64,000 nt of DNA from Pseudodesulfovibrio sp. zrk46 (lineage in GTDB: Bacteria > Desulfobacterota > Desulfovibrionia > Desulfovibrionales > Desulfovibrionaceae): contig NZ_CP051216.1 of NCBI RefSeq assembly GCF_012516435.1, positions 2,126,001-2,190,000 on the forward strand, written 5' to 3'. This document shows, in pieces, positions 439 through 4,136 of this stretch. Positions within the stretch are counted from its first letter, which is position 1; every line of letters begins with the position of its first letter. The position numbers and the translations under genes are program-made. The notes beneath the pieces were generated by a model, which searched no databases, was not told the DNA's origin, and was given only the letters and a program-made list of their open reading frames with translations.

Positions 439-1251
439 TTATGCGTCGCTGTACTTTCTGCGTAAGCCAACGAGTCCGATTAAACCGGAACCGAGGAGCC
501 ATACTGCACCCGGTATGGGAGTGGCTGATGGGAGGGATGCATCAAACTCCAGTTTCGCGGAGGAGAGGAGGAAATCGCCTTCCAGTCCCATGACAGAGAA
601 GAAGAATATGGAGTTCGTTTCCATGAATGCAAGGGCGAACGAATCGAGGGAAAACACTGCGGAGAATTCGCCGGTATTGTCGTTTGTTACCTCGGAGACC
701 GTCGTAAAGGTTGTGTCGTGAGTGTAGTACTCGACAGTCGTGAATGGGGAGGGGGTTTCTGTCTTGTCGAGACTGGTCAAGCCCATAGATCTCTCAATAC
801 GGGGGGTAGTCGAAGTTTGCGTGGTTGAACTTGCCTGTTTTGTGCCTGCAAGACTGGTGACTTGAGCGGTTTCCCCGGCAAATGTCGTTGTATCTGTACG
901 CTCATACATATTCATCCGAAATCTTTCGTATTTGATGGTGGTATAGGGTGCATCATTATAGATTCCAGTTTGGTGATACAATTGGGTCGAACTTCCTTTA
1001 TAAGCAGGGGTCCCAGTGTTGAACGTAAATTCATCACCTTCCATGTCATCCTCAAAAGTGGCTGTGAAACTGCCGCTGCTGATATTGTATCCAGCATACT
1101 CGGAAAGGTCGAAAAGATAGGACGATGGTCCGATGCCTGCCGAGTAACGGTCATAGTAGGACTGCTGCATCGTAATGAGTTCTGCTCGAGCAGTAGAAGC
1201 GGTGAAAATGAGAAGGCCTACGAGAGTGATGGTTTTTAGTAGCTTATGCAT
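439..1251 (-). CDS. Secreted protein with PEP-CTERM/VPLPA-type sorting signal
   Basis: Start is set at 1251 because AGGAGG precedes that ATG by 7 bases and gives a clean signal peptide (MHKLLKTITLVGLLIFTASTARA); an upstream in-frame start at 1275 would add eight residues and displace the Shine-Dalgarno. The mature part (~245 residues) is Thr/Ser-rich, with no Cys and no fold I recognise. The last 25 residues hold PIPGAVWLLGSGLIGLVG followed by LRRK: Pro motif, hydrophobic helix, basic end, as in PEP-CTERM/VPLPA-CTERM substrates of exosortases. The protein is probably processed at the outer surface. No exosortase or glycan-export gene is in the window, so it is an orphan target. Confidence 0.8.
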   Translation of the reverse strand: MHKLLKTITLVGLLIFTASTARAELITMQQSYYDRYSAGIGPSSYLFDLSEYAGYNISSGSFTATFEDDMEGDEFTFNTGTPAYKGSSTQLYHQTGIYNDAPYTTIKYERFRMNMYERTDTTTFAGETAQVTSLAGTKQASSTTQTSTTPRIERSMGLTSLDKTETPSPFTTVEYYTHDTTFTTVSEVTNDNTGEFSAVFSLDSFALAFMETNSIFFFSVMGLEGDFLLSSAKLEFDASLPSATPIPGAVWLLGSGLIGLVGLRRKYSDA

Positions 1252-1493
1252 GATGGATCCTCCTGGCGGGAGCAAAGCAGCATGTATGCCAGTTGTAGTA
1301 TATCAATCAGTTATGAAATCCTCTCTGAAAAGTCTGGAAAATGAAGACAGTTGAGTGGGGTTGGTTCAGAAGCTTGCTCATTGGCAATCTGGGTAGGGCA
1401 TCAAATAGCGGGATTGCAGAGTCTCCCAAACGTGCTACATGTGGTTTGCGTAACGAAACAACGTGCATGAGACACTTTCGGAGATGAGACACC

Positions 1494-3433: not shown

Positions 3434-3567
3434 GCTGTCGATTAATACGTAAGCAGCGGTACAAGTCAAGTTCGTCCCAGCTGCGCCTGAGGTCTACGCA
3501 ATGGCCTCATCGGTTCCGCTATTAGCAAGAAAACTCATTTAACATAGGGTACCCCGGTAGGGTATTT

Positions 3568-3652
3568 GTTGGTCAAGCCAAACCCGTCGTGAGACGGAGA
3601 CGGAAAGCCACGGGTCTCTTTATGGAGATAGCCGGGTTGCACTCCCTCCCTT
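3568..3652 (+). promoter_or_regulatory. Cyclic-di-GMP-I (GEMM) riboswitch aptamer
   Basis: The core matches the GEMM-I consensus in order: CAAACC (3579-3584), a CGTC-GTGA-GACG stem with GNRA tetraloop, GACGGAAAGCC, then ACGGGTCTC, a short loop and GAGATAGCCGGGTTGC. The GTCTC/GAGAT helix and the GCCGGGTT receptor side are as in the family. The base just before CAAACC is C, where Vc2 has the ligand-contacting G, and GACGGAAAGCC replaces the usual GACGCAAAGCC; ligand choice may therefore differ. Downstream, GGTTTGG (3733-3739) can pair with CCAAACC (3770-3776) just ahead of the Shine-Dalgarno at 3788, a possible expression platform (inference). It precedes the 79-residue membrane protein at 3798. 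Confidence 0.87.
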
Positions 3653-3797
3653 TGCTTCTGTTTCTCCATGTTTACTCATGGCCGGGGTAGGCCGATTGAA
3701 TTGGGCACGGTCGTCCCGATGTCCTTGATAATGGTTTGGTTGGGAAAAACGTTTGTTTTTTCACAACTGCCAAACCTCAGATAGTTTAGGAGTGAAC

Positions 3798-4037
3798 ATG
3801 AGTCGTAACGGCACCCCTTCTGGCGTTCTTGTTGGTAGTGTGTTGTGTGCTGCAATGATGGGAGTCATGGTTGGTCTGATGCCTTGCCTGATTCTTTATA
3901 TCGGGCTTAACTTTTTTGGCAGTCCTCCATTTAATGCAATCACCATTGGTGCCTATTTTGCCATGATCGCAGCAGGTGTTGGTGTCTCCATGGGGGCCGG
4001 GATAATCGAGTCCCCGTTCTCAAGGCGGATTGGCTGA
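3798..4037 (+). CDS. Small two-helix membrane protein under a GEMM riboswitch
   Basis: It has 79 residues. Start ATG 3798 is preceded by TAGGAG at 6 bases; an in-frame start at 3753 lies inside the leader and is rejected. Two strongly hydrophobic segments (about 9-40 and 46-68) are rich in Gly, Met and Ala, with a short positively charged tail (SPFSRRIG). I recognise no family. Because the c-di-GMP-I aptamer is the only regulatory element before it and a terminator follows at once, it is the sole gene of this riboswitch unit. A role in surface attachment, secretion or envelope change is a guess from the ligand, not from the protein. Confidence 0.8.
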   Translation: MSRNGTPSGVLVGSVLCAAMMGVMVGLMPCLILYIGLNFFGSPPFNAITIGAYFAMIAAGVGVSMGAGIIESPFSRRIG

Positions 4038-4061
4038 TAGCGTTCTTAAGAAAGAAATGGG

Positions 4062-4100
4062 AAAGGGCATCAACGGTGTTGATGCCCTTTTCTTGTTTTT
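4062..4100 (+). terminator. Terminator after the riboswitch gene
   Basis: AAAGGGCATCAAC (4062-4074) pairs with GTTGATGCCCTTT (4078-4090), followed by TCTTGTTTTT. It ends the riboswitch-controlled unit and separates it from the convergent chemoreceptor gene. Confidence 0.9.
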
Positions 4101-4136
4101 AGAGAGGGAACGGCCTCTTTATCCTTCGTTGTTTTA

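Follow-up and report, generated by a model that had tools for sequence, protein, structure and literature searches.

GEMM riboswitches normally precede conserved surface, secretion or signalling genes, and when a riboswitch stands before a gene it is usually the amount of the product that follows the ligand, rather than the product that binds it. Riboswitches of the GEMM-Ib type, which respond to 3',3'-cGAMP, carry an A at the position of G20 in the Vc2 aptamer. One published study describes the G20-equivalent as a selectivity factor among cyclic dinucleotides (PMC9262584).

Here we analyzed a stretch of 64,000 nucleotides from Pseudodesulfovibrio sp. zrk46 (the window; NZ_CP051216.1, positions 2,126,001 to 2,190,000), in which a GEMM-I aptamer stands before one short open reading frame (ORF). 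The riboswitch itself is ordinary for the RF01051 class, with which it shares the full-length model match, the conserved ligand contacts, the GNRA tetraloop and the location in the 5' leader of a gene; unlike the class, it heads a single 79-codon ORFan, and it is this target that is unusual. The reading we prefer, with a probability of about one half, is that a functional GEMM-I riboswitch, most likely copied, controls a young, lineage-specific gene for a 79-aa inner-membrane hairpin protein. No published account of this GEMM-I/ORFan unit was found in a limited literature search.

Aptamer and layout of the unit

The Rfam scan matched the full RF01051 model (1–87) at 57.5 bits (E 1.3e-8), compared to a gathering score of 35 bits, which confirmed the c-di-GMP-I aptamer named in a preliminary description of this DNA; the remaining Rfam matches within the window were two tRNAs and nothing else. 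A genome-wide GEMM search recovered the same site and found four GEMMs in the genome. The first hairpin had a GNRA tetraloop (GTGA, 3589–3592) on a predicted closing stem. In the alignment of the 68 genus aptamers, G3577, A3604 and C3640 fell at the positions that we take to be G20, A47 and C92 in Vc2 numbering, and these positions held G in 66, A in 68 and C in 65 of the aptamers, respectively, so that the ligand-contact positions of the window aptamer appear intact. As G3577 occupies the Vc2 G20 position, c-di-GMP is the expected ligand, rather than cGAMP. GEMM-Ib identity was rejected on the same position: the fold and the Rfam family are shared, whereas the window aptamer has G and GEMM-Ib has A. 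There were 33 GGDEF matches in the genome, indicating that the ligand pathway is present. In two of the 68 genus aptamers (L031 and L041), A replaced G at this position, a possible drift towards cGAMP; L041 and L001, the latter one of the other GEMMs of the zrk46 genome, precede secretion genes of one kind, and L001 has G there.

A leader of 153 nt separates the aptamer from the ATG (Table 1). An in-frame TTG further upstream would lengthen the ORF to 94 aa, and the ATG was preferred owing to its better Shine-Dalgarno sequence. No terminator-like site was found between aptamer and ORF in the scan, and the hairpin that follows the ORF sits where the convergent chemoreceptor gene ends. With this terminator, the convergent chemoreceptor gene and the divergent methyltransferase gene on either side, the ORF forms a one-gene unit, and the arrangement of one small ORF, a good Shine-Dalgarno sequence and a terminator had been described correctly. 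No sigma-70-like promoter of the unit was found, which counts against a functional riboswitch. Elsewhere in the window (439–1275, minus strand), a 278-aa protein ended in a PEP-CTERM-like C-terminal tail (PIPGAVWLLGSGLIGLVGLRRK).

Table 1. Positions of the unit, its predicted RNA pairings and the flanking genes in the window
Feature	Start	End	Strand	Basis
Divergent methyltransferase gene, outside the unit	2849	3469	-	Pfam Methyltransf_11
Possible closing helix around the aptamer, TACCCCGG (3550–3557) with CCGGGGTA (3682–3689)	3550	3689	+	Predicted
c-di-GMP-I (GEMM-I) aptamer	3567	3644	+	RF01051; alignment of conserved positions to the 67 remaining genus aptamers
Anti-aptamer pairing of 3598–3605 (ligand-pocket strand) with 3656–3663, 8 pairs	3598	3663	+	Predicted; ligand-free minimum-free-energy folds
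Sequestering helix of 3667–3677 with 3790–3800	3667	3800	+	Predicted; folds
Shine-Dalgarno AGGAG	3788	3792	+	Sequence; 5 nt 5' of ATG 3798
79-aa hydrophobic two-helix ORFan (P0001)	3798	4037	+	Open frame
Terminator-like hairpin, 16 pairs, usable from both strands	4059	4093	+	Consensus scan
Convergent methyl-accepting chemotaxis protein (MCPsignal, two CZB, HAMP), outside the unit	4137	6194	-	Pfam

GEMM-I targets and the origin of the aptamer

GEMM-I was present in all 36 Pseudodesulfovibrio genomes searched; across the order, 103 of 345 genomes carried it. The 68 sites of the genus were sorted by their first same-strand product through pattern matching and reading, and Pfam names were assigned for ten representative targets. 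An HD-domain protein followed the aptamer at 33 sites, a two-partner-secretion transporter at 11, a 138-aa protein of no family at seven, where the aptamers were weak, a sigma-54 response regulator at four, a glycine-zipper lipoprotein at three and a 387–392-aa lipoprotein at two, while a 164-aa secreted protein, a 327-aa lipoprotein, a Sel1-repeat lipoprotein and the 79-aa ORF of the window followed it at one site each. One site (L010) had no gene, and three (L040, L058 and L061) were ended by contig edges. Among the 65 readable units, the window's alone had a product shorter than 100 aa; the others, in contrast, had products of at least 138 aa except for the gene-less one, with one protein of the 138-aa kind read as 115 aa at a contig end. 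In the zrk46 genome itself, the other GEMMs head ordinary c-di-GMP outputs, namely a secretion transporter (L001), an HD-domain protein (L002) and a response regulator (L004). At the gene-less site (G015:C1:51232-51306), a terminator-like hairpin came before any same-strand gene, and this aptamer either stands idle as a copy or belongs to a unit that makes RNA only. The seven weak matches (L066–L072, about 32–36 bits) shared one architecture, in which the 115–138-aa protein without Pfam family followed a leader whose hairpin combines GGCC with arms made of a T-run and an A-run.

Beyond the genus, at least 89 sites of the order (some in one tandem array) and 80 of at least 120 GTDB loci were surveyed. 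The targets were called with a heuristic ORF caller and read by eye, unannotated, so the count is inexact; no convincing second lone two-helix ORF of similar size was seen among the matches listed for the order and GTDB. Two loci contained tandem arrays of four GEMM-I aptamers, L246 (G128:C2:42530-42909) and L247 (G094:C105:30424-30775), the latter before a 165-aa secreted protein. Tandem arrays are reported to be capable of steeper or more complex responses (PMC9481103). Five further loci (L129, L135, L141, L144 and L170), most of them from Sulfurovum or other Epsilonproteobacteria, had paired GEMM-like cores about 140–160 nt apart.

When the region 3480–4130 was compared with the DNA of the genus, the best match was the aptamer of the genome's own secretion gene, with 91% identity over 66 bases (E 2.2e-19), and the next-best genome's match reached E 1.4e-15. 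The similarity was confined to about 3575–3641, plus a few downstream bases in some matches. Further weak matches were those of the terminator to its own reverse strand and one of 39 bases (E 0.007); apart from this 39-base match, the leader DNA outside the aptamer was unconserved in the 36 genus genomes. In a global alignment, the own secretion-gene aptamer again ranked first (0.782 vs 0.769 for the next). This first rank, although the lead is small, suggests that the window aptamer is likely a within-genome copy of the L001 aptamer. The two leaders are alike in the aptamer, whereas the leader sequence and the gene that follow it at L001, the latter encoding a ShlB/FhaC-like transporter, are unrelated to those in the window.

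The neighbours of the unit were also used as a route to diverged homologues, and the DHH-CBS, methyltransferase and chemoreceptor genes gave no counterpart. The upstream DHH-CBS gene occurred in 12 of 36 genus genomes, and in the 11 stretches compared the neighbours differed and a comparable unit was not seen. The divergent methyltransferase occurred in three of 36 genomes, and the closest relative of the chemoreceptor (63%) was in genome G020, whose sole GEMM is located elsewhere.

Leader folding and the 79-residue protein

In the ligand-free minimum-free-energy folds, the ligand-pocket strand of the aptamer was drawn into the anti-aptamer pairing and C3640 paired with G3654, while P3 was retained. 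With the pocket strand and C3640 paired elsewhere, this predicted fold would be unable to bind the ligand. The closing helix was proposed from the sequence and from folds that keep the start region open. The sequestering helix is predicted to mask the start codon and part of the Shine-Dalgarno sequence, and in most folds run the start codon was sequestered with or without the imposed aptamer. Leader-start pairing alone was not significant: its 11-pair run was equalled by 174 of 2000 leader shuffles (about 1 in 11) and its duplex energy by 217 of 5000 shuffles (about 1 in 23). This complementarity was accordingly not accepted as establishing the ORF as the target.

Upon calculating the cost of opening the start in four folding windows, we obtained 5.1, 4.4, 8.0, and 9.2 kcal/mol for the ligand-free state and 7.1, 6.8, 8.1, and 9.5 kcal/mol for the aptamer-bound state, respectively. 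The bound state was thus about 2 kcal/mol more costly in two of the four and nearly equal in the other two. A clean thermodynamic ON or OFF model was not obtained from these costs; the folds lean weakly towards an OFF switch, and a kinetic switch is possible. As the leader holds no terminator, translation is the likely controlled step, and control is probably exerted at the translational level.

The codon score of the ORF was 0.09 bit per codon, compared to 0.36 (sd 0.18) for equal-size pieces of long genes in the window, and 126 spurious ORFs gave −0.35 (sd 0.28). Scores as low were found in 7% of the gene pieces, and scores as high in 9.5% of the spurious ORFs. The remaining five frames of the stretch scored below the ORF, and the third-position GC was 0.49 vs 0.66. 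When the region 3645–4136 was shuffled 3000 times with dinucleotide composition preserved, an ATG ORF of at least 79 codons was present in 371 shuffles, such an ORF with a Shine-Dalgarno-like site in 49, and one with two hydrophobic segments in addition in seven, the terminator not being counted. These counts indicate that the ORF exceeds what chance readily gives and fall short of proof for a gene. The ORF is plausibly coding, below the average for the window; the coding evidence is modest to moderate, and its status as a gene is itself uncertain.

A single-sequence model of the protein gave two helices, 7–40 and 44–77 (mean pLDDT 72, pTM 0.46), which form what looks like a generic hairpin, and the protein has four charged residues in total (R3, E71, R76 and R77). 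Two hydrophobic segments and no recognised domain had been reported for it, and both points held: Pfam, NCBIfam, PHROG and PADLOC returned no family at the cut-off. Membership of DUF4118 (PF13493; 13.4 bits vs a curated cut-off of 28.4) and of Phage_holin_3_6 (PF07332; 11.6 bits vs 28.4, with no PHROG family) was rejected. Sequence searches were equally empty. In 148 related genomes there was one weak match besides the protein itself (E 0.008, within a 573-codon frame), and in 395 genomes of the phylum there were two weak matches besides itself and no true homologue. When 348 genomes of the order were searched with tblastn at E 0.1, 58 had matches, including its own, and all others were at E 2.8e-4 or weaker. 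The weak matches listed were mostly short segments of longer frames or stop-containing frames, and the best of them (E 2.8e-4) were segments of long membrane proteins; lying mainly within long frames, they look like shared hydrophobic composition. GTDB contigs, IMG/VR, PLSDB and INPHARED held no homologue, and matches to PDB sequences were not above noise. The preliminary description had suggested asking whether homologues also follow GEMM aptamers, and no convincing homologue for this was found in the genomes and databases searched. As the ORF was found in one genome and conserved nowhere else, purifying selection cannot be shown, which counts against a lineage-specific gene.

Structural comparison returned generic hairpins only, among them ExbB/TolQ and subunit c as well as soluble coils. 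Several ExbB/TolQ helix-pair rows stood at the top of the Foldseek matches (best E 0.83), and in a second structural look ExbB/TolQ (Z 7.3) was tied with unrelated hairpins. The hhalign score against a MotA-relative profile, built from two sequences because two of eight loci yielded any, was under the block-shuffled mean. On the E value, the tie and this weak negative profile test, a relation to ExbB/TolQ was judged doubtful. The protein resembles holins, type I toxins and ExbB/TolQ helix pairs in its length and modelled helical-hairpin topology, whereas it has no above-threshold family score and its gene context does not match theirs.

Weighing the readings of the unit

The chief rival of a copied cassette is a relic or idle aptamer, copied or left after target loss, followed by a 79-codon ORF that arose by chance or decayed and makes no useful protein. 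We regard this as a real possibility, though not the leading one: the ORF has no homologue and a low codon score, equally long ATG ORFs turn up in 371 of the shuffles once the Shine-Dalgarno condition is dropped, and the gene-less L010 indicates that idle GEMM copies occur. However, the ligand-contact positions of the aptamer are intact, and a well-placed AGGAG and a terminator are joined here by a frame that stays open and encodes two clean hydrophobic helices, a combination that even with the terminator left out arose in seven of 3000 shuffles. It is unlikely that the ORF, under ordinary GEMM control, has instead diverged beyond sequence recognition from a known family of small membrane proteins with two helices (similar to holins or type I toxins, or a truncated piece of a transporter). 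The predicted hairpin, the sub-threshold Phage_holin_3_6 match, the ExbB/TolQ rows of Foldseek and the weak tblastn matches to long membrane proteins would agree with such an origin, but every match is sub-threshold and they are scattered among unrelated helical proteins; the MotA-relative profile, with its two of eight loci, scored under the shuffled mean, and the ORFs read near the locus gave no sign of a phage or toxin context.

It is very unlikely that the leader RNA is the product, as a small RNA responsive to c-di-GMP or as a transcript antisense to the chemoreceptor mRNA at its 3' end, with the ORF incidental. The long leader with its predicted structure and the terminator common to the unit and the convergent chemoreceptor gene fit an RNA product, but a good Shine-Dalgarno sequence and an ORF are carried on the RNA, and the leader beyond the aptamer is unconserved in the genus, bar the weak 39-base match. 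The least probable reading of all is that c-di-GMP acts on the peptide directly, as a bound ligand or by gating it. Its one supporting point is that synthesis is apparently tied to c-di-GMP, against which stand the four charged residues in all, the absence of a recognised c-di-GMP-binding domain in the Pfam and family searches, and the ordinary outputs found as the other products of the 65 readable genus units. Those outputs imply that standing behind a GEMM is not enough to identify a product as an effector. The preliminary description had taken the single-gene unit to mean that the peptide is a c-di-GMP effector; the one-gene GEMM-I unit and its small two-helix candidate product stand, and the effector role found no support.

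For the copied riboswitch that we prefer, the proposed course is as follows. The aptamer would have been copied within the genome from the leader of the two-partner-secretion gene and would now precede a gene that is young and restricted to the lineage, its product being a hairpin protein of 79 residues in the inner membrane. Binding of c-di-GMP would compete with the anti-aptamer pairing inside the 153-nt leader, and this competition would alter access to the Shine-Dalgarno sequence and the start codon, so that c-di-GMP sets translation of the peptide. The peptide may then serve as a c-di-GMP output within the membrane, where it would probably modify a complex concerned with motility, secretion or the surface.

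A GEMM before a lone ORFan would show a riboswitch module copied and re-used to place a young gene under second-messenger control. We tentatively suggest, as a rather doubtful extension, that the duplicated secretion-leader aptamer captured a newborn microprotein gene, so that a gene without relatives joined the c-di-GMP regulon at birth; if this were true, the peptide would be a c-di-GMP output at the membrane that is peculiar to this species. Should the aptamer be no more than a relic, the locus shows how idle riboswitch copies persist.
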